NCBI GenBank assembly: GCA_024653205.1
Contig: JANLFO010000002.1
Span: forward strand, 149,590-183,247
Direction of reading: 5' to 3'
DNA length: 33,658 nt
Source of the DNA: Clostridia bacterium
GTDB taxonomy: Bacteria; Bacillota; DSM-521; Neomoorellales; SLTJ01
A model generated the notes under the pieces. That model made no database searches. It was not told the DNA's origin and saw only the letters and a program-made list of their open reading frames with translations. Positions 6,577 through 33,314 of the stretch are shown here, piece by piece. Made by a program: the position numbers and the translations under genes. Position 1 is the stretch's first letter; each line of letters begins with the position of its first letter.

Positions 6577-6950
6577 TTTTTTATGAATGGACGCTTTGCG
6601 GCTGTGGGTGTTCAGGCGTTCAAGAGATACTTTGTAGACCGCAAGCCCGTTGTTGACGAGAAAGCCTCCTGCCGGCCAGAAGCCGAAGGGAGGTTTGATT
6701 TTAGAAACTGCTCCCCCCGCATGGCAGGAAACACCGCAGGAAGAGTCTATCTTTGAGGAAGCCGGCCCACGGTGCTCCTAGAGGTCTCTCGACAGCGTAA
6801 GACCGTCCTACAACCTGTCCGCTTGAGCAGGATTTTGCCCACTGAAGAGCCAAGTCGTACTTCGCTAGGACATACTAGTTAAGCGTTGAGAAATATTCCT
6901 GCTCTATGCCTTGCGTGCAGAAAGCGTTGACTCTGGGGAGGTATAGCAAG
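6577..6950. other. Gene-poor stretch between tRNA-Trp and hicB
   Basis: No convincing gene was found. A 69-codon plus frame (6547-6756) begins inside the tRNA and is probably not translated. Its tail could be a remnant of an older mobile or accessory gene, but it has no recognisable motif. No good -35/-10 pair for hicB was found. GGGGAGGT at 6935-6942 is the hicB ribosome site. Confidence 0.4.
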
Positions 6951-7178
6951 ATGCTTTATCGATACAAAGTCATCTTGGAGTGGGATGAAGAAGGAAGGGG
7001 ATATGTTGTCTCCGTTCCCGCCTTGCCTGGGTGTTTCACGCAAGGAGACACCGTTGAGGAGGCCCTAGAAAGGGCCAAAGAGGCTATAGCCGGCCACCTT
7101 GCGGCCTTGGCCCAGGAGGGCTTGCCTTTACCCAGCAAAGATGTTGAAATAGCCGAAGTACAGGTAGAGATAGCTTAA
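6951..7178 (+). CDS. hicB: HicB-family antitoxin (short form)
   Basis: This 75-residue protein shows the partial RNase H-like HicB fold: YKVILEWDEEGRGYVVSVPALPG, then the helix TVEEALERAKEAIAGHLAAL. It ends shortly after the fold, so it lacks the extra DNA-binding domain of longer HicB proteins. The ATG at 6951 is preferred over an upstream in-frame ATG at 6906 because GGGGAGGT lies 8 nt before it and the family signature starts right after. HicB binds and inhibits the mRNA-cleaving HicA toxin. The stop (TAA 7176-7178) overlaps an ATG at 7178 that would be the natural hicA start, but that ATG is out of frame with the hicA body. Confidence 0.88.
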   Translation: MLYRYKVILEWDEEGRGYVVSVPALPGCFTQGDTVEEALERAKEAIAGHLAALAQEGLPLPSKDVEIAEVQVEIA

Positions 7179-7750: not shown

Positions 7751-9328
7751 GTGGCCAGGAAGCCAGAAAGCGATACGTCTGCGAACCTCGGATTCGAGGC
7801 CCAGTTGTGGAAGGCCGCCGATGCCCTGCGTAACAACATGGACGCCGCCGAGTACAAGCACGTGGTGCTCGGCCTCATTTTCCTCAAGTACATCTCCGAC
7901 GCCTTCGAGGAGCATTACGCCAAGCTCCAGACGGAGCCCTACGCCGACCCTGAGGACCCCGACGAGTACCGCGCCGTCAACATTTTCTGGGTGCCGCTTG
8001 AAGCCCGCTGGTCTCATCTAAAGGCCAACGCCAAACAGCCTAACATCGGTCAACTGGTGGACGAAGCAATGATTGCCATCGAGCGGGACAATCCCTCGCT
8101 CAAGGGAGTGCTTCCCAAGGAGTACGCCCGACCGAACCTCGACAAGATGCGCCTGGGCCAGTTGATCGACCTGATTAGCAGCATCGGCCTGGGAGGCAGT
8201 GAGAACCGCTCGAAGGACATTCTGGGGCGTGTCTATGAGTACTTCCTCCAGCAGTTCGCCAGCGCGGAGGGCAAGAAGGGCGGCCAGTTTTACACCCCCC
8301 GCTGTGTAGTAGAGTTACTCGTCGAAATGATTGCTCCTTATAAAGGCCGGGTTTACGACCCCTGCTGCGGCTCCGGCGGCATGTTCGTGCAGTCGGCTAA
8401 ATTCATTGAGGCCCATGCTACAGGCAACGGCAACGGTGGCCGCGCCAGGAGGCAGATCAGCATATACGGCCAGGAATCCAACTACACCACTTGGCGGCTC
8501 TGCAAGATGAACTTGGCCATCCGCGGCATTGACGGCCACATCGCCCACGGCGACAGTTTTCACAACGACCAGTTCCCGGACCTCAAAGCCGACTACATCC
8601 TCGCCAATCCGCCTTTCAACGACAGCGACTGGCGGGGAGAACTGTTGCGCGAGGACAAACGCTGGAAGTTCGGCATCCCGCCCGTATCGAACGCGAATTT
8701 CGCGTGGGTACAGCACTTTGTATATCACCTTGCGCCGAATGGGATTGCCGGGTTCGTACTTGCTAACGGCTCCATGTCCTCCAACCAGTCCGGCGAGGGA
8801 GAAATCCGCAAGAACATCATTGAGGCCGATCTGGTGGACTGTATGGTGGCCCTGCCAGGCCAGCTCTTTTACTCCACGCAGATCCCCGCCTGCCTATGGT
8901 TTATCGCCCGCAACAAGAAGGGCGGCACAGGGCTTTCGGGCAGGCCCCTGCGCGACCGCTCTGGGCAGGTACTCTTCATTGACGCCCGCAAGCTTGGCGT
9001 CATGGTGGACCGCGTACACCGCGAACTGACCCCCGAGGACATCCGCAAGATTGCCGACACCTACCACAACTGGCGCGGGGACGGCGACGGAGAATACCGG
9101 GACGTACCGGGCTTCTGCAAGGCGGCGACGCTGAAGGAGATTCGTGAAAACGGCTACGTGCTTACTCCAGGGCGCTACGTCGGGGTTGAACAAGCCGAGG
9201 ACGACGGCGAGCCTTTCGAGGAGAAGATGGCGCGGCTGGTGGCCGAACTGTGCCGGCAGCGGGAAGAAGCCGCTAAACTCGACGCGGCCATTAGGCGCAA
9301 TCTGAAGGAGTTGGGGTTTGGTGAGTGA
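7751..9328 (+). CDS. hsdM: Type I restriction-modification DNA methyltransferase subunit HsdM
   Basis: This 525-residue N6-adenine methyltransferase acts in the M2S complex. The N-terminal helical HsdM domain ([29 protein letters not shown]) covers about 15-150. The linker [16 protein letters not shown] (178-193) leads to the AdoMet motif DPCCGSGG (203-210). The catalytic motif IV is NPPF (286-289). The GTG at 7751 lies 1 nt after GGAGG, but AGAGGTGA (7736-7743) gives a proper 7-nt spacing. Its stop overlaps the region of the hsdS start, so the two are translated together. It protects host DNA at the site chosen by HsdS. Confidence 0.96.
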
Positions 9329-9338
9329 GGGGCGTAAG

Positions 9339-10640
9339 ATGCGCTGGGGCGATCTCGCCACCCTGAAATATGGCAAGAGGCTTCGAGGCTACGAGAATGT
9401 TGAGGCCCATTACCGAGTCTATGGTACCGACGGGCCAATAGGTTGGCACCATGAGCCGCTGTGTAATCATCCGACCGTAATTGTCGGCCGTAAGGGAGCT
9501 TACCGTGGCATTCACTATTCACCTGAGCCCTGCTTCGTGATTGATACAGCTTTCTACCTTGAGCCTCGTGTAGAGTTTGATATGCGTTGGGCTTATTATG
9601 AATTGTTGAACCGCGACATCAATAGCATGGATAGTGGTTCGGCAATCCCTTCTACCAGCAGAGAAGCTTTCTACCAACTACCTGTCGCGGTCCCAAGTAT
9701 CGAAGAGCAACGCGCCATCGCCCACATACTTGGCACGTTGGACGACAAGATCGAGCTTAACCGGCGCATGAACGAAACGCTAGAGGCAATAGCGCGCGCC
9801 ATCTTCAAGTCGTGGTTCTTAGACTTTGACCCGGTAATTGACAATGCGCTCAAGGTAGGTAATACAATCCCGAGCGAACTGGAGGAGAAAGCCGCCCGCC
9901 GGCGCGAAGTTCTCGCCCGCACCCGAGCCGAGGGCCACCCCGCCGGGTTACCGGAGCCCCTGGCAAAGCTGTTCCCCGATGAGTTCGAGGAGAGAGAGTT
10001 GGGGTGGATACCAAAGGGGTGGAGGGTTGGTACACTCCGAGAGGTTGTCAACCTTGTAAAGGACGGAGTAAACCCGCTGGATACGCCGGATGCAGAGTTC
10101 TTGCATTTCAGCATTCCTGCGTTCGACGAAGGCGTAATGCCAAAGCGAGAACGCGGTGAAGCAATTAAGAGTTTCAAGTTCCGGGTACCCGCCGGAGCTG
10201 TTCTACTATCCAAGCTAAATCCCGAGATTAAGCGCGTTTGGCTGGTGGATATAAGCGATAATGACCGCGCTATCTGTTCAACTGAGTTTCTTGTTCTTCT
10301 TGCACAACCGCCGTTTACCAAGTCTTTTGTCTACTGCTTGGTTCAGTCGTCTAACTTCCGACGTGAGCTTGAAGGTTTAGTAACTGGTACATCTAAGAGT
10401 CATCAACGCGCACAGCCCGAAGCCGTACTTAGTATAGCTACGGTCCTACCAGAGCGTCCGTTGCTCGCAGCATTCGAAAGAATAGTGGCACCCATGCTGG
10501 AGACAACCCTGATAAAGAAGCGCGAATCCTATACCCTCGCCGCCCTGCGTGATACGCTACTACCCAAGCTTATCTCCGGTGAACTGCGGGTATCGTCGCG
10601 GATTATTAGGGACTTTGAGGTGCTTCCGAAGCAGGTATGA
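9339..10640 (+). CDS. hsdS: Type I restriction-modification specificity subunit HsdS
   Basis: HsdS carries two target-recognition domains, each reading one half of a split DNA site, and bridges HsdM and HsdR. TRD1 covers about 1-115 (MRWGDLATLKYGKRL, then SGSAIPSTSREAFYQLPVAV). The first conserved helix is EEQRAIAHILGTLDDKIELN. TRD2 starts near WIPKGWRVGTLREVV and ends with the second helix and LRDTLLPKLISGELRV. The length of about 433 residues is normal. ATG 9339 has GAGGGG before it; TTG 9318 and GTG 9321 are in-frame alternatives that overlap hsdM. The gene is AT-richer than hsdM and hsdR by eye, most strongly in TRD2, which suggests exchange of specificity modules. Confidence 0.94.
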   Translation: MRWGDLATLKYGKRLRGYENVEAHYRVYGTDGPIGWHHEPLCNHPTVIVGRKGAYRGIHYSPEPCFVIDTAFYLEPRVEFDMRWAYYELLNRDINSMDSGSAIPSTSREAFYQLPVAVPSIEEQRAIAHILGTLDDKIELNRRMNETLEAIARAIFKSWFLDFDPVIDNALKVGNTIPSELEEKAARRREVLARTRAEGHPAGLPEPLAKLFPDEFEERELGWIPKGWRVGTLREVVNLVKDGVNPLDTPDAEFLHFSIPAFDEGVMPKRERGEAIKSFKFRVPAGAVLLSKLNPEIKRVWLVDISDNDRAICSTEFLVLLAQPPFTKSFVYCLVQSSNFRRELEGLVTGTSKSHQRAQPEAVLSIATVLPERPLLAAFERIVAPMLETTLIKKRESYTLAALRDTLLPKLISGELRVSSRIIRDFEVLPKQV

Positions 10641-10771
10641 TTTTCCGGCGATTGAAACCTTGTCTCTCAGGTGCTTCCAGGTTTGAGGGGGAGGGGGAAA
10701 TCGAGGAGGATTACGTGAGTTAGGCCGCGAGCAGTTGCCGAGTTTTGTTTCGGAAGCACCGGGACTTTGAG
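10609..10771. repeat. Composite repeats around the hsdS / OLD-gene junction
   Basis: GGGACTTTGAG occurs at 10609-10619 (end of hsdS) and again at 10761-10771 (just before the OLD gene). GGTGCTTCCGAA (10619-10630) has a perfect 12-nt inverted copy TTCGGAAGCACC (10749-10760). A third partial copy, GGTGCTTCC, lies at 10670-10678. Together they frame the 148-nt gap between the two genes. They could be an operator, a hairpin in the transcript, or a scar left when the gene was inserted. Confidence 0.75.
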
Positions 10772-10788
10772 AAGGAGGGTACGATTAC

Positions 10789-12494
10789 ATGTTGACCAGT
10801 CTCCAATGCAAGAACTTTCGTTGTCTCGAGGATGTTGACGTCCCGCTTGGGCCACTGACCGCTATTGTTGGGCCAAACGGTTCTGGAAAGACTGCAATTC
10901 TCCGGGCCATAGATATGGTGTTTGGCGAGGTCTGGCCGTCCATGCGGAGTTTTCGGATTCCCCAGGATTTCTACGCATTCGACACATCACGGGGAATAGA
11001 GATAATCGTCTGGTTCGACCCTCCATATGTTCACGAGGATGACTTCGATAACAGGCACCAGGTTAACGCTGTCCGATTATCCTGCAAGCCGTACCAGAGA
11101 TCTGGTAAGTGGGGGACCGCAGGAGACTTGCACGTCGACCTTGAGCCTCTAAACGCTGAAGGGGACGTGCCCCTTATTCCCGTAACGCCCCGACGCAAGG
11201 GTGTAAAGCCTCAATTTCGCCCCTTACCAGTTGGGACTGCACTTCGTGAACAGAACCGTGTCCTGTTTGTTGATCATAGACGTAGCGTTCTCCAGCACTT
11301 GCCGACTGTTAGGGGGTCCATCCTGGCCAAGCTCTTAGAGCCAGCGCGTCGTGAGTTCACAGCAGAAGCTGACTTTCGGAAAGCCTATGAAACTGCGATG
11401 GAGTGCCTTAGAACCGAACAGGTTCGTGAGTTAGAGAAGCGCATTCAAGATACCGCTAAGCGCATGCTAGGGTTTCTTGGCAGGGGCGTTGCCAAGTCAA
11501 TCGAAATCGGGTTTGGGTTCGCAGATCCTTCAAATCCTTTCAATTCGCTGAGACTTCAATACAGGGAGGGCGACCTTGAGGTTCCAGCTGAAGAACTTGG
11601 GCTTGGAATTCAAAGTGCAATTGTAGTGGGGCTGTTCGATGCTTTTCGCCAGCTTGGTGGTGAATTTCAGACAATCGTTATAGAAGAACCGGAAATGTAC
11701 TTACATCCACAGGCACAACGTTATTTCTACCGATTGCTCAGAGAGATGGTCGAAGCTTCACAATGCCAAGTGATCTACTCGACACACTCGCCTATTTTTG
11801 CGGACGTTAACTTATATGAGACACTTCGTCTTGTCCGTAAGGATCCTGGCCAGTCATCGAGCGTTACGTATGTCTCAGTGGAAAACTATGAACGTTTGGC
11901 TAAGGAAAGGGAACGCCAAAAACTGGCAGGACAGTTCAACCCAGCAAGAAATGAGGTTTTCTTCGCCAAGAAGGCACTACTTGTTGAAGGGCCTGCTGAT
12001 CGTAGCGCAGTCCTAATAGTAGCTGAGCGGATGAATCTAGACATCGATGCCGAGGGTATTACTGTTATAGACTGTGGCGGCAAGAATGGTATTCCACTAG
12101 TTGCTAGTGTTTGTACCGATTTGGGAATACCCTTCTTGGTCCTACATGACGAGGACATTTGGCCGGAAGATAAGGGTCAAGATCCGGCTAGGCAAGCCAA
12201 GGAGAACGAGGTCGCTCAAGCAGAGAATGCGCGGATACTAGAAGCAGCTGGTGGACAGGACCGAGTATTGCTAATCAAACCATCATTGGAGGCGGCCCTA
12301 AATATTGGAAGAAATGCTAAGGATAAGCCTCAGAAGGTAGTAGAGAGAGTTCGTAGTATGAACTTGGATGAAATTCCGAAGGAACTAGTTGCCGTGGTCA
12401 ATATGCTATTTGAGAGCAATACATGTGAAAGTACGGAAGTGATTTCTCCTGGTGAAGTCCAGACTCGAGTAGCCAATGGTGGGTGGGGATTAAG

Positions 12495-12498
<4 letters not shown>
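10789..12498 (+). CDS. OLD-family ATP-dependent nuclease (ABC/AAA ATPase plus TOPRIM) within the type I RM operon
   Basis: The protein has 569 residues. The N-terminal ABC-type ATPase has Walker A GPNGSGKT (28-35), a split insert, the signature-like region [14 protein letters not shown], Walker [13 protein letters not shown] (acidic E299/E300) and the switch STHSPIF. The C-terminal TOPRIM domain has LLVEGPADR (E400), CGGKNGIP, and HDED (D454, D456) as the metal-binding acidic pair, then PSLEAAL. This is the layout of OLD nucleases and of GajA of the Gabija defence system. No UvrD-type GajB partner is present. The ATG follows GAAGGAGGGT. Its TGA stop overlaps the hsdR GTG (GTGA), so it is coupled to hsdR. 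Base use is AT-richer than hsdM and hsdR. It is probably an anti-phage nuclease; its partner and target are unknown. Confidence 0.9.
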
Positions 12499-15650
<3,152 letters not shown>

Positions 15651-21274: not shown

Positions 21275-21742
21275 ATGACGTTATTTTCCAGTCAGCGAAG
21301 ACCACGCCCCGTGCGTGCCGGACTGATCACCATGCTTATTATAGCCATAGGTTGGGCGGCGGGGGAAGCGGCAGTTCTTCCCTATTGGCCGCAAGGAGAA
21401 CGGGTGCTGGGAACCGTGGGCTGGGTGGTAGCGGTCTTTGCCGGCTGCTCGGTGGCGCAGGCGAAGGCACGCGGGATCCGCTTTTCCTACCCGGCCGAGC
21501 GGGTAGCCCTGGCGGCAATGGGCCTGGCGGCGGCGGGAGAACTGGCCGCAGCCGGGATAGGGTGGGGTTCAGGCCCGGATTGGGCAGACTCGTTGTTGCG
21601 GGCGGGTCTCGCTGTCCTGGCGATGGCGGCTGCGGTGAGAGTGGCGGGAATGGCGGTAAAGGCGAGGAGGACGAGCAGGTATGAAGCTTACGCCCAACGC
21701 ACTTACTATATTGGAGAAGCGCTACTTAAGGAGAGAGAATAA
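21275..21742 (+). CDS. Small hypothetical membrane protein overlapping nrdJ
   Basis: This 155-residue protein has about four hydrophobic stretches (LITMLIIAIGWAAGEAAVL, VLGTVGWVVAVFAGCSVA, VALAAMGLAAAGELAAAGI, and a fourth near 110-127) and a short basic end. The ATG at 21275 follows AAGGTGA at 6 nt, which supports translation. Its last 62 nt overlap the nrdJ start in another frame, so the two genes are probably translationally coupled. I do not recognise the family. An upstream partner of nrdJ could be expected to serve B12 supply or regulation, but nothing in the sequence shows that. Confidence 0.6.
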   Translation: MTLFSSQRRPRPVRAGLITMLIIAIGWAAGEAAVLPYWPQGERVLGTVGWVVAVFAGCSVAQAKARGIRFSYPAERVALAAMGLAAAGELAAAGIGWGSGPDWADSLLRAGLAVLAMAAAVRVAGMAVKARRTSRYEAYAQRTYYIGEALLKERE

Positions 21743-24700
21743 CCGGCTGGTGGAAACGCCCGAGGAGATGTTCCGGAGGGTAGCCCGGGCGGTGGCGGCC
21801 GCCGAGCGCATATTCCGGCCGGACATTGGCGAAGCAGAACTGGCCGCGATCGAAGACAAGTTCTACACGCTGATGACCGAACTCGACTTCCTGCCCAACA
21901 GCCCCACCCTCATGAACGCCGGTAGGGAACTGGGGCAGCTTTCCGCCTGCTTTGTCCTCCCGGTAGGGGATAGCATGGAAGAGATTTTTACCGCGCTCAA
22001 GGACGCCGCCCTCATACATAAGTCCGGCGGCGGCACGGGCTTCAGCTTCTCCCGGCTGCGCCCCAAGAACAGCCCGGTGCGCAGCACCGGCGGGGTGGCA
22101 TCGGGCCCGGTTTCCTTCATGAAGGTCTTCAACGCCGCCACCGAGGCCATAAAGCAGGGGGGCACGCGCCGCGGTGCCAACATGGGCATGCTGCGGGTGG
22201 ACCACCCGGACGTTCTGGAGTTCATTCGAAGCAAGCGGGATAACCGGGAACTGACCAACTTTAACATCTCGGTTGCCCTCACCGGGGAATTCATGCAGGC
22301 GCTGGAAAACGACGACTACTACGAGCTCAAGTTCAACGGGCGGGTATACGACCGGCTGAAAGCCCGTGAGGTGTTCGACCTCATCGTTGAGCATGCCTGG
22401 GCCAACGGCGAGCCGGGCATAGTGTTCCTGGACCGGCTGAACGAGGGCAACCCCACCCCCGAACTGGGCGAGATCGAGGCCACCAACCCCTGCGTGACCG
22501 GGGATACGTGGGTAACCACCAGTGAAGGCCCCCGCCAGGTGTGCGAGCTGGTGGGCCGTCCCTTTGAGGCGGTGGTTAATGGGGCAGCTTACCGCTCGGG
22601 CAGGGAAGGCTTTTTCCGCACGGCGGTAAAACCGGTCGTGAGGCTACGTACCCGGGAAGGTTATAGCCTGCGCCTGACCTCAGACCACCGGCTCTTGCGC
22701 GTAGTTGACCGCACCCGCTACCGTATCAGTTACGAGTGGGTACCGGTCAAGGAGCTGAAGCCCGGCGACCAGATACTCCTGCATAACCACCGGTCCCTGG
22801 CGGGCTGGCCCGGCGAACTTACCGAGGGCGAAGGGTACCTACTCGGCCTCCTGGTGGGGGACGGGGTACTGAAAGAGGACACCGCCGTTCTTTCGGTTTG
22901 GGCAAGAGAACAGGCAGTGCCCGGCTTGACCTCAGAGAGTGGCGCGGGCTCAATTATGGAACTGGCCTTGAGCTATGCTGTGAACCTGCCTCACCGTTCC
23001 GGCTTTCGCGGCTGGTTTCCGATTTCCGGGCGCAGTGAATTCCGCCTTAAATCCGCGCCTCTGAAGACGCTGGCCGAGCGCATGGGCCTGCGCCCGGGCA
23101 AGAAGACGGTTACCCGGGAAATAGAACGCGCCTCATCCGAGGGTTACCGGGGTTTCTTGCGTGGCCTCTTCGACAGCGACGGCTCGGTGCAGGGAAGTCA
23201 GGAAAAAGGCGCTAGTATTCGTCTTGCTCAAAGCAACCTTGAGCTTCTCAAGGCCGTCCAGCGTATGCTCCTTCGCCTGGGGATTGTGAGCACCGTATAT
23301 GAGGAACGACGTCCGGTCGGCGCAAGACCCATGCCGGATGGCAAGGGAGGCAAGCGCGATTATGACGCAAAGGCCCAGCATGAACTGGTTATCTCAGGGG
23401 ATAACCTGGCTGCCTTTGCGGCACGCATCGGCTTTGGCGACCGGGAAAAGGCGGAGAAACTCACCCGGCTTCTCGGTGCCTACCGGCGCAAAATGAACCG
23501 GGAAAAGTTCCTGGCTACGGTCTTATCCGTGGAGGAGGAGGGAGTAGAGGAAGTATACGATGTCCGAATCCCCGGCGTCAACGCTTTCGACGCCAATGGA
23601 ATCTATGCCCACAACTGCGGGGAGCAGCCGCTTCTGCCCTACGAGGCCTGCAACCTGGGCTCGGTGAATCTGGCCCAGATGGTGGAAGACGGGCGCATCG
23701 TGTGGGATCGACTCAAAGAGGTGGTAGCCTGGTCGGTGCGGTTCCTGGACAACGTCATCGAGGTCAACCGCTACCCTCTCCCGACCATCGAGCAACTGGC
23801 CCGGGGCAACCGCAAGATAGGGCTGGGCGTAATGGGATGGGCGGACATGCTCTTCCGTTTGGGCGTGCCCTACGACAGCGAGCAGGCGGTGGAACTTGCC
23901 CGCAAGGTAATGGGGTATATACAGGAGGTAGCGGTGACAACCTCACGTCAACTGGCCGAAGAGCGGGGGGACTTTCCCAACCTGGAACGAAGCATCTACC
24001 GGGGCCAGAGGAGGCGCAACGCCACCTGCACCACCATCGCACCCACCGGCACCATCAGCATGATCGCCGGCACCACCTCGGGAATAGAGCCGGTATTCTC
24101 CCTGGTCTACACCAAGAATGTGCTGGAAGGTGAGCAGCTGCTGGAGATCAATCCGGTATTCGAAGAGTACGTGCGCGGTGCGTTCGAGCCGGCCAAGGCG
24201 GAAAGCATCTTCCGAGAGGTGGCGCGGACCGGCTCCTGTCAGCACATCGGGGATATTCCGCCGGACGTGCGCCGGGTATTCGTAACCGCCCTGGAAATAG
24301 CGCCGGTATGGCATATCCGCATGCAGGCGGCCTTCCAGGAGTATACGGACAACGCCGTGAGCAAGACGGTTAATTTCCCCTACACCGCCACCCAGAAGGA
24401 CGTAGAAGAAGTGTTCCTCCTGGCCTACCGGCTGGGCTGCAAGGGCGTAACCGTATACCGCTCGGGCAGCCGCGAAGAGGAAGTGCTGGTGCGGGGCCAG
24501 GGCGAAGCCAAACCAGGCGGGAAGAAGACCTATCCTCGCCCCCGGCCCAAGCGCACCCTCGGCGTAACCGAGCAGGTCAAGACCGGATGCGGGAAGATGT
24601 ACATTACGGTCAACTTCGATCAGGAGGGCATAATCGAGACTTTCATCACCACCGGCTCTACCGGAGGGTGTCAGGGATTCGCCGAAGGGGTGAGCCGGCT

Positions 24701-25073
24701 GGTTTCCCTGGCCCTGCGGGCCAACATCGCCCCGGAGGCCATTATCGACCAGCTCACCTCGGTCAGTTGCCCCAACTTTCTCCGGCGCCGGGCCAAAGAC
24801 CCCGGCCTGGTGGGCAAGTCCTGTCCGGACATCATCGGCCGCATTCTGGCCCACGAACTGGCGCGTACCGGGGGGGAGAAGCTGGAACAGGCGCTGCGGG
24901 AGGCGCTGGAAGAAACCGTCGTGGCCGCCGAGGACCCGGATAACGGCTGCCGGCCGGCCCCGGTGGACGAACTGGAACTCATTCGTCGCGGCATCTGCCC
25001 GGAGTGCGGTGCGCGGTTGCAGTACAGCGAGGGCTGCCTCGTTTGCCGCTGCGGGTTCAGTCGCTGCGAGTAA
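21681..25073 (+). CDS. nrdJ: Adenosylcobalamin-dependent (class II) ribonucleotide reductase, intein-containing precursor
   Basis: The enzyme reduces ribonucleotides to deoxyribonucleotides with a B12-derived thiyl radical and needs no oxygen. The precursor has 1,130 residues; removal of the intein (271-645) leaves about 755. Visible parts are QLSACFVLPVGDS (first redox cysteine), KSGGGTGFSFSRLRPK and GGTRRGANMGML. The catalytic-loop motif NP|CGEQPLLPYEACNLGSV is split by the intein. Downstream are NRKIGLGVMGWADMLF and APTGTISMIAGTTSGIEP. The C-terminal part carries a TSCPD domain (TGSTGGCQGFAEGVSRLV, TSVSCPNF) and a final zinc-ribbon-like CPECGARL...CRCGFSRC. The ATG at 21681 has GAGGAGG about 10 nt before it and overlaps the preceding gene. 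Splicing is required for activity. Confidence 0.96.
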   Translation: MKLTPNALTILEKRYLRRENNRLVETPEEMFRRVARAVAAAERIFRPDIGEAELAAIEDKFYTLMTELDFLPNSPTLMNAGRELGQLSACFVLPVGDSMEEIFTALKDAALIHKSGGGTGFSFSRLRPKNSPVRSTGGVASGPVSFMKVFNAATEAIKQGGTRRGANMGMLRVDHPDVLEFIRSKRDNRELTNFNISVALTGEFMQALENDDYYELKFNGRVYDRLKAREVFDLIVEHAWANGEPGIVFLDRLNEGNPTPELGEIEATNPCVTGDTWVTTSEGPRQVCELVGRPFEAVVNGAAYRSGREGFFRTAVKPVVRLRTREGYSLRLTSDHRLLRVVDRTRYRISYEWVPVKELKPGDQILLHNHRSLAGWPGELTEGEGYLLGLLVGDGVLKEDTAVLSVWAREQAVPGLTSESGAGSIMELALSYAVNLPHRSGFRGWFPISGRSEFRLKSAPLKTLAERMGLRPGKKTVTREIERASSEGYRGFLRGLFDSDGSVQGSQEKGASIRLAQSNLELLKAVQRMLLRLGIVSTVYEERRPVGARPMPDGKGGKRDYDAKAQHELVISGDNLAAFAARIGFGDREKAEKLTRLLGAYRRKMNREKFLATVLSVEEEGVEEVYDVRIPGVNAFDANGIYAHNCGEQPLLPYEACNLGSVNLAQMVEDGRIVWDRLKEVVAWSVRFLDNVIEVNRYPLPTIEQLARGNRKIGLGVMGWADMLFRLGVPYDSEQAVELARKVMGYIQEVAVTTSRQLAEERGDFPNLERSIYRGQRRRNATCTTIAPTGTISMIAGTTSGIEPVFSLVYTKNVLEGEQLLEINPVFEEYVRGAFEPAKAESIFREVARTGSCQHIGDIPPDVRRVFVTALEIAPVWHIRMQAAFQEYTDNAVSKTVNFPYTATQKDVEEVFLLAYRLGCKGVTVYRSGSREEEVLVRGQGEAKPGGKKTYPRPRPKRTLGVTEQVKTGCGKMYITVNFDQEGIIETFITTGSTGGCQGFAEGVSRLVSLALRANIAPEAIIDQLTSVSCPNFLRRRAKDPGLVGKSCPDIIGRILAHELARTGGEKLEQALREALEETVVAAEDPDNGCRPAPVDELELIRRGICPECGARLQYSEGCLVCRCGFSRCE
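22491..23615 (+). mobile_element. Intein with LAGLIDADG homing endonuclease, inserted at the NrdJ active site
   Basis: The 375-residue insert begins with Cys1 (CVTGDTWVTTSEG, codon 271) and ends ...GIYAHN before Cys+1 (codon 646). Removing it restores the family motif NPCGEQPL. Splicing blocks are present: A (CVTGDTWV), B (LTSDHRLLRV, the TxxH motif), F (VYDVRIPGVNAFDANGIYA) and G (HN|C). Two dodecapeptides, LLGLLVGDG (near 387) and LRGLFDSDG (near 492), mark a two-motif homing endonuclease, both with the catalytic aspartate. The element therefore looks able to splice and possibly to home. The extein cysteine at the junction is the expected thiyl-radical residue. Confidence 0.95.
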
Positions 25074-30951: not shown

Positions 30952-31055
30952 AATCGATCACGCCAACCGCTAAGGGCAAACCCGCCGAAAGACGGGGGCG
31001 CAAAGCCGCGGGCCTAAGTCCTCCGGGATATGGCAGCCGGGCTGCCGGGGAAGAT
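30952..31055 (+). promoter_or_regulatory. Cyclic di-GMP-I (GEMM-I) riboswitch aptamer
   Basis: The conserved core reads ATCACGCC..TAAGGGCAAACC, a stem CCCG...CGGG with a GAAA tetraloop, GGCGCAAAGCC, then GGGCCTAAG and the second arm GGCAGC-CGG-GCTGCC (31032-31046). These are the landmarks of the GEMM-I aptamer: the ligand-binding guanine in AGGGCAAA, the tetraloop and the receptor strand. It lies in the leader of a chemoreceptor gene, a known target class for this riboswitch. GATCAC (30956-30961) is complementary to GTGATC (31068-31073), which could compete with closing of the aptamer stem. Confidence 0.93.
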
Positions 31056-31082: not shown

Positions 31083-31110
31083 AGGCCGCCCTTCACCCGG
31101 AGGGCGGCCT
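31083..31110 (+). terminator. Hairpin in the riboswitch expression platform (terminator-like, weak T run)
   Basis: AGGCCGCCCT (31083-31092) pairs perfectly with AGGGCGGCCT (31101-31110) over an 8-nt loop. Only T-CCCGCGCTT follows, so termination would be weak or need another factor. It sits about 30 nt after the aptamer, where an expression platform is expected. Confidence 0.55.
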
Positions 31111-31153: not shown

Positions 31154-31173
31154 GGAGGGGGTGAGAGATGTAG
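31154..31173 (+). promoter_or_regulatory. Ribosome site with start-stop (ATG-TAG) in the leader
   Basis: GGAGGGGGTGAG (31154-31165) is followed at normal spacing by ATG (31168-31170), which is directly followed by TAG (31171-31173). The best ribosome site of the leader therefore opens a one-codon frame. The same stretch can pair weakly with CCCCCT at 31130-31135. Confidence 0.5.
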
Positions 31174-31230
31174 CTACGGAGTTGGTGTATTCGGACCGGC
31201 GGAGATGCGTTCTGCTGTCCAAACCCAGGG

Positions 31231-31267
31231 AAGGAGGTATAGGTCGCCTAGAGAAAAATCAGGCGAC
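31231..31267 (+). promoter_or_regulatory. Strong Shine-Dalgarno followed by a hairpin before the chemoreceptor start
   Basis: AAGGAGGT (31231-31238) has no ATG, GTG or TTG in the receptor frame at normal distance. A perfect 7-bp hairpin follows (GTCGCCT 31243-31249, loop of 11 nt, AGGCGAC 31261-31267), and the GTG at 31275 comes 7 nt after it. When folded, the distance from ribosome site to start shrinks to about 11 nt. Confidence 0.5.
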
Positions 31268-31274
31268 GACAAGA

Positions 31275-33314
31275 GTGAAAATAATCGGATTGGGAAGCAG
31301 TATCAGAACCAAGATCAGTATGGTAGTGGCGTTGATCCTTATAGCCGGGTGCGTGGCGCTATGGTACATGGCCGAGGACCAGGCCGGCAGTGCTCTGGAG
31401 GCCGAGGCGAAAGAGGCCATGCTCAAGGTGGCAAAGCAGGTCGCCGAGACCCAGGACAGCCGCGTGCAGGCCCGTATGTACGTCGTGGAATCACTTGCCA
31501 ACCGCAGCGTGATCCGCGGCCAGTTAGGCGACCGAGAGTCAACGCTTGAGGAGAAACTGCAGGTGCTTCGTGAGGAATTGGAGACGGCAAAGGAGCTGGG
31601 GTTCAAGGAATTTACTCTCGTTGACCGCGAAGGCAACGGCCACATATGCAACGGCGGAACCGTCCAGGTAGCGGACAGGGATTATTTCAAGACCGCCATA
31701 AGCGGGAAGAGCTGTGTATCCAGCACCATCATCAGCAAGGCCGATGGGTCGGTGATTTTTGCCTACAACGCACCCGTGCGTCACTATCAGACCAACGAAA
31801 TCATAGGGATATTGAGCGGGATAGTTGACGGGGCTAAGTTCAGCGAACTGGTAGGCAGCGTAACCTACGCCCAGACCGGGTACGCCTTTGCCGTGGACGG
31901 CGCGGGCAAGATGATCGCGCACCGCGATGTGGAGAGCGTGACTTCCCAGGCCAACTACCTGGAGCAAGCCAAGTCCGACCCATCCTTGGATTCACTGGCA
32001 GGCGTTATTTCGAAGATGATCGCCGGAGAGGAAGGTGCGGGAAGCTACACCTTTGAAGGCGTCGACAAGCTTTGCGCCTACGCTCCCATTGGCACTACGG
32101 GCTGGTCGGTGGCGGTAACCGCTCCCAGGGACGAAGTGCTGGCACGGGCAGGTGGACTGAAGCGCTCGATGCTGCTGATCAGCGCGATAGTGATCTTCGC
32201 CGCAGTGATGCTGGTCGTTCTTTTCATGCGAAGCATGACCGCCGGCATAACCGCAGCCGCGGCCCACCTGGGGGTCATAGCCGAGGGCGACTTTACCCGA
32301 ACAGTACCGGAACGGCACCTGCGCCTCCGCGACGAGGTAGGGAAGATGGCCCGCGCGGTGGACGAAATGCAGAACAGGATGAAGGCGCTTCTCTCAGGGA
32401 TAAAGGAGGATGCCAAGACCCTGGCCCAGAGTTCGGAGACCCTGGGCGCAGCCTCGGAGGAAATAGCCGCCTCCAGCGGCGAGGTCGCCAAAGCCATCCA
32501 GCAGGTGGCCGCAGGCGCTTCCGACCAGTCCGGGCACCTGCAGGACATATTGCGACTGGCGGAAGACATGGCTTCCAGCCTGGAGCGGGTACGCGCGGAG
32601 CTGGAGAAGGTCAGGGCCAACAGCGAGGAAAGTTCAAAGCTTGCCGACGTGGGCAAGAAGGAACTGGACCTTCTGGTCAACTCCATCCGGGCAGTGCGGG
32701 AATCGTTCAACACCGTAACCGAAAGGCTCTCCGCCTTAAGCGGGTCGGTCAACCAGATAGGCGAGATCCTGGAAGTAATCAACGGGATCGCCGACCAGAC
32801 CAACCTGCTGGCCCTCAACGCGGCCATCGAGGCGGCACGGGCCGGCGAGGCGGGCCGCGGCTTTGCCGTGGTGGCGGACGAGGTGCGGAAACTCGCCGAG
32901 CAGTCCCGGGCCTCCTCGGACAAGATCAGGGACCTGCTGACCAGCATCGGCTCGGAAACCTCGGAAGTGGTCAGAACCTCAAACGACACGGGGCAGCAGG
33001 TGGCCTCGCAGCTGGAAAAGGCGGAGAAGACCATCAAGGCCTTCGACAACATCCTGCAGGCGGTGGCGGCCATAGTGCCCATGATCGAGGCTACCTACCG
33101 CGAGGTGGACGCCACCGTAAAGGCCAAGGACACAGTGCTGGACCGGGTGCAGAGTGTGAGCGCGGTAGCGGAAGAGGCCGCGGCTTCCTCCCAGGAGATC
33201 TCCGCATCGGCCGAGGAGCTTTCCGCCTCCACCGAGGAGATCGCCTCCGGCGCTCAGGAGATCATGAGGGTGGCCAGGCGCCTGGAAGAGCAAGCGGAGC
33301 GGTTTAAGGTGTAA
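31275..33314 (+). CDS. Methyl-accepting chemotaxis protein with a dCache-type sensor
   Basis: The receptor has about 679 residues from GTG 31275. TM1 is about 14-33 ([18 protein letters not shown]). The extracellular double-Cache sensor runs to about 290 ([65 protein letters not shown]). TM2 is 299-321. A HAMP-like region and a long cytoplasmic coiled coil follow, with the signalling tip [20 protein letters not shown] (505 on) that binds CheA/CheW. The start is uncertain: the frame is open to GTG 31161, but that start has no spacing from its ribosome site, while 31275 gives the usual short cytoplasmic N-terminus. No chemotaxis operon is nearby. Expression is probably under c-di-GMP control through the riboswitch. 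Confidence 0.93.

Follow-up and report, generated by a model that had tools for sequence, protein, structure and literature searches.

Only very few examples are known, mainly from phage T4, of ribosome binding sites in which a hairpin bridges the Shine-Dalgarno (SD) sequence and the start codon. The hairpin shortens the gap from 27 to 11 nt in T4 gene 25 and from 22 to 5 nt in gene 38, and mutations that destabilise these hairpins lower initiation (PMC3014915). The ribosome site of E. coli thrS is also interrupted by a hairpin, which is reportedly accommodated without unfolding (PMC3936740). While the open-licence full texts in PMC yielded these T4 and thrS precedents, they held no report of the hairpin in the receptor family considered here, which lies at the start of a chemotaxis receptor gene in the window (the whole stretch of 33,658 nucleotides analysed). 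Comparison with the leaders of homologous genes indicates that positions 31231-31277 very probably constitute a split, structure-bridged ribosome binding site of the T4 gene 38/25 type.

The site, on the forward strand, opens with a strong SD, AAGGAGGT (31231..31238; anti-SD duplex -10.6 kcal/mol), followed by a 4-nt 5' linker, ATAG (31239..31242). The bridging hairpin consists of a 5' arm GTCGCCT (31243..31249), a loop of 11 nt in the window (31250..31260) and a 3' arm AGGCGAC (31261..31267); the arms are read from the sequence and the whole hairpin is given by fold prediction, with covariation as further evidence for the 5' arm. A 7-nt 3' linker, GACAAGA (31268..31274), then leads to the GTG start codon (31275..31277), placed by comparison of homologous leaders. 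The linear gap from the SD to the GTG is thus 36 nt (31239-31274), while the folded gap is 11 nt, since the linkers are 4 and 7 nt. The letters, coordinates and distances given in the initial annotation, which had noted an SD 36 nt before the start, a perfect 7-bp hairpin filling the space between them and a distance of about 11 nt upon folding, are all exactly borne out. The hairpin region has a predicted folding energy of -15.5 kcal/mol (z -2.5), and the gap alone folds with a z of -5.2. Out of 20,000 dinucleotide shuffles of the gap, 34 produced a perfect stem of 7 bp or longer. Among the 42 SD-like sites of the window (at most one mismatch) such a stem follows the AAGGAGGT site and none of the 41 others. 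The gene itself (31275..33314, forward strand; about 679 aa), identified from its reading frame and a domain search, encodes a methyl-accepting chemotaxis protein with dCache_1 (7e-30), MCPsignal (4e-43) and weakly matching HAMP domains. Elsewhere, the window carries a HicB-like antitoxin gene (6906-7178), a type I restriction-modification system (HsdM, HsdS, HsdR; 7751-15650) with an OLD-like AAA ATPase/TOPRIM gene between HsdS and HsdR (10789-12498), possibly an associated defence gene, and a ribonucleotide reductase large subunit with a TSCPD domain, split by an intein that contains a LAGLIDADG endonuclease domain (21681-25073).

Homologs were gathered by protein searches and their leaders were then inspected for SD, hairpin and start. 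The receptor relatives, the nearest of which share 48-58% identity with the window protein, belong to Moorella- and Thermanaeromonas-type genomes, Desulfofundulus, Desulfovirgula, Thermoanaerobacterales MAGs and others. A further 24 SD-hairpin-start leaders came from 21 Bacillota genomes other than that of the window, together with a paralog, giving a total of 25 leaders in 22 genomes (three genomes having two each). Every one of the further leaders has a strong SD, then a hairpin, a short linker and the start, typically in the form AAGGAGGTATAGGTCGCCCCGC...GCGGGAGCGACCGGCAGCAGTATG (L011); the hairpins often have two tiers, with the 3' side bulged and a second stem-loop in the loop region. The linear gap, 36 nt in the window and 35-57 nt (sd 6.9) in the homologs, is too long for initiation, as in the T4-type sites, while the stable hairpin reduces it to a distance in the functional range, 11 nt in the window and a median of 13 nt in the homologs. 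The sd of this folded gap, 3.9, compares with 9.3 for shuffled gaps and was matched in none of 200 shuffles; short folded gaps occur in L013, L060, L064 and L066 and long ones in L008, L009 and L087. The hairpin forms in a longer predicted context in 23 of the 25 leaders (L008 and L096 favour other folds), and the combined shuffle P for stable folding of the gaps, relatedness being ignored, is ~1e-17. Alternative pairing of the gap that would sequester the SD is appreciable only in L066, L067, L087 and L095 and negligible in the window. L087 (1501-1581, G055 contig 22) belongs to a paralogous receptor gene which has an in-frame stop and has nevertheless retained the SD-hairpin-start leader, with CGCTC/GAGCG replacing the usual lower stem.

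By these comparisons it is the structure, and not the sequence, that is conserved. When nine leaders were aligned by sequence only, the covariation score was reached by 10 of 500 shuffles. An alignment of 17 leaders to the model shows double changes in 10 of the 15 pairs, and the score is 0.216 against 0.158+-0.015 in shuffles, none of 500 reaching it, this strongest figure being based on a structure-fitted alignment that leans towards structure. No model is needed for the same-genus pair L067 (GATTGCCG/CGGCAATC) and L095 (GGTTATCC/GGGTAACC), in which all eight stem pairs are kept across three double changes plus a single one, although their loops have diverged; one more double change in the stem distinguishes L043 from L098. 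Stems with unrelated letters occupy the same position in L063 (GCTGCTCCTG/CAGGGGCAGC), L066 and L096, and these leaders, like L067, keep the layout despite their unrelated stem sequences. The covariation proposed earlier as a check on homologous leaders is hence present: the arrangement persists in all 24, where stem changes compensate one another. The conservation of the hairpin together with the compensating mutations suggests that folding sets a workable distance between SD and start.

Five homologs lack the hairpin (L014/L042, L041/L062, L045/L068, L054 and L016), and in these the SD lies 10-12 nt from the start, a distance similar to that in the folded hairpin leaders. Such spacing, along with the 24 further leaders, supports the core claim of the initial annotation, namely that the hairpin closes the distance between a remote SD and the start. 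Mapped onto the protein tree, the presence or absence of the hairpin calls for three changes, consistent with one gain and two losses, and L045 and L016, two lineages without the hairpin, fall outside; this history is tentative because the deep nodes are poorly supported. An insert may have entered the ordinary ribosome site of the receptor family on a single occasion, in an ancestor within the Bacillota, and may since have been retained by a ratchet, because a working start is left only by a foldable insert or by its clean loss. At the level of initiation, the 30S subunit would pair with AAGGAGGT while the intervening hairpin would stay folded and be carried outside the mRNA channel, so that the GTG would sit about 11 nt from the SD rather than 36. 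The ribosome would thereby accommodate the folded hairpin, and expression would be expected to fall if the hairpin failed to fold.

The element appears to be particular to this receptor family. A covariance model derived from nine homologs, with the window left out, finds the window site with an E-value of 0.003 in 33 kb and a weak 0.2 in the whole genome. Applied to 61 and 398 genomes, it gives clear matches that all fall in the receptor family, with nothing convincing outside it in the approximately 400 genomes; the notion that the same element stands at other genes was dropped, as the extra matches are due to chance, for instance within coding sequence (L102/L103, L082). A search of Rfam returned no family over 31225-31281.

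Among other explanations of the hairpin, the one that best survives is that the split site is regulated, the hairpin being an operator which a protein, sRNA or ligand binds or unfolds to switch translation of the receptor. Some 15 homologs show good conservation of the linker and of the lower stem GGTCG/CGACC, the hairpin is retained across families although its plain loss restores normal spacing, and the principle is demonstrated by ThrRS acting on E. coli thrS (PMC3936740). Against this, L063, L066, L067, L095 and L096 share the geometry and not the stem letters, so that no common sequence-specific binder fits all; nor is one needed, as the stem letters change freely while the geometry stays. 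Rfam, too, contains no matching family. A dual-site operator for CsrA was rejected, since an unpaired GGA occurs in only five of the 25 hairpins, the window not among them, and genome G016 has the hairpin and no CsrA match. An operator function is therefore considered unlikely. Some factor or condition might more generally toggle the hairpin between a folded state (start on) and an unfolded or occupied one (start off), a regulated bridge which appears doubtful to a like degree; if true, it would represent a second layer of control for the receptor family behind the c-di-GMP riboswitch.

That riboswitch, a c-di-GMP-I aptamer (30966..31050, forward strand), is best labelled in Rfam as the c-di-GMP-I-GGC variant (RF03167, 72.1 bits; also RF01051, 79 bits), a label shared with L015, L038 and L054. 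On its 3' side the sequence contains a GC-rich 9-bp hairpin, GGCCGCCCT/AGGGCGGCC (31084..31109, forward strand), which is possibly the expression platform; its T tract is not clear and the intrinsic terminator search made no call on it. Comparable hairpins are situated 3' of the aptamer in L011, L012 and L015. The aptamer of the window ends about 190 nt before the bridging hairpin, and aptamers also lie upstream in L011, L012, L013, L015, L039 and L043, as might be expected were this hairpin the expression platform or another part of the riboswitch. Most hairpin leaders, however, lack an adjacent aptamer (for example L008, L009, L010, L046, L061, L063-L067 and L095), L054 has the aptamer and no hairpin, and the genes behind the other five of the six c-di-GMP-I aptamers in this genome have ordinary SD spacing. 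Aptamer and hairpin are thus separable, many homologs carrying one without the other; the hairpin, downstream of the aptamer in the window, is not coupled to it, and its assignment to the riboswitch was rejected as very improbable.

The split-site reading also depends on where translation begins. The reading frame in the window is open upstream as far as the GTG at 31161, and the start is therefore not proven by the window alone: translation could start 5' of the hairpin, at this GTG for instance, in which case SD and hairpin would be coding and coincidental. The homologs speak against this. In 12 of the 25 leaders the stretch from SD to start holds in-frame stops, which precludes initiation upstream of the hairpin there; the gap lengths are not confined to multiples of three, occupying all three classes modulo 3, which together with the stops marks the gap as non-coding. 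In addition, the residues encoded upstream are not conserved, and the GTG at 31161 immediately adjoins a GGAGGGG of its own. An upstream start was consequently rejected as highly implausible. The homologs put the start 3' of the hairpin, in agreement with the GTG proposed as likely in the initial annotation, and measured from the conserved GSLRxKM motif, GTG 31275 lies within about one codon of the homologous ATG. No competing SD stands at normal distance in the window, the best such site reaching -2.9 kcal/mol in the anti-SD duplex against -10.6 for the upstream SD; over all leaders the means are -9.8 kcal/mol for the upstream SD and -4.5 for proximal candidates, most of which lie within the stem. 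As to an RNA thermometer, in which temperature would melt or form the hairpin and so set translation, several homologs come from genera which we take, from the organism names, to be thermophilic, but known thermometers bury the SD or the start in a stem, whereas here both lie outside a stem whose predicted pairing in the window is 0.93 at 37 C and 0.74 at 65 C; predicted pairing stays high to 65-75 C and the leader stems remain largely paired at 55-75 C, so that the temperature dependence suggested earlier finds no support and this explanation is scarcely credible.

The hairpin as a structural bridge thus compares closely with the systems described, and extends them to a family-wide chromosomal set of about 25 natural variants, with compensating mutations, stem replacements and natural deletions that restore the spacing. 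Such a set makes it testable what size of folded insert between SD and start a ribosome can tolerate, and is a warning for gene-start predictors, which at such genes would place the start wrongly or overlook the SD. As in T4 genes 25 and 38, a strong SD is too distant and the gap is shortened by a hairpin (here from 36 to 11 nt), and the arrangement is kept in close relatives and missing in more distant ones. Unlike the T4 cases, which are phage genes, the gene here encodes a bacterial chromosomal chemotaxis receptor and the arrangement is known from sequence comparison; the hairpins are longer and often two-tiered, with gaps of up to 57 nt, and they are conserved across several Bacillota families with turnover of whole stem sequences. 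The likeness to E. coli thrS is that a hairpin interrupts the ribosome site. The thrS hairpin, however, lies upstream of the SD, where as a tRNA mimic it is bound by ThrRS for autoregulation, whereas in the receptor family the hairpin separates SD from start, and nothing points to a binder.
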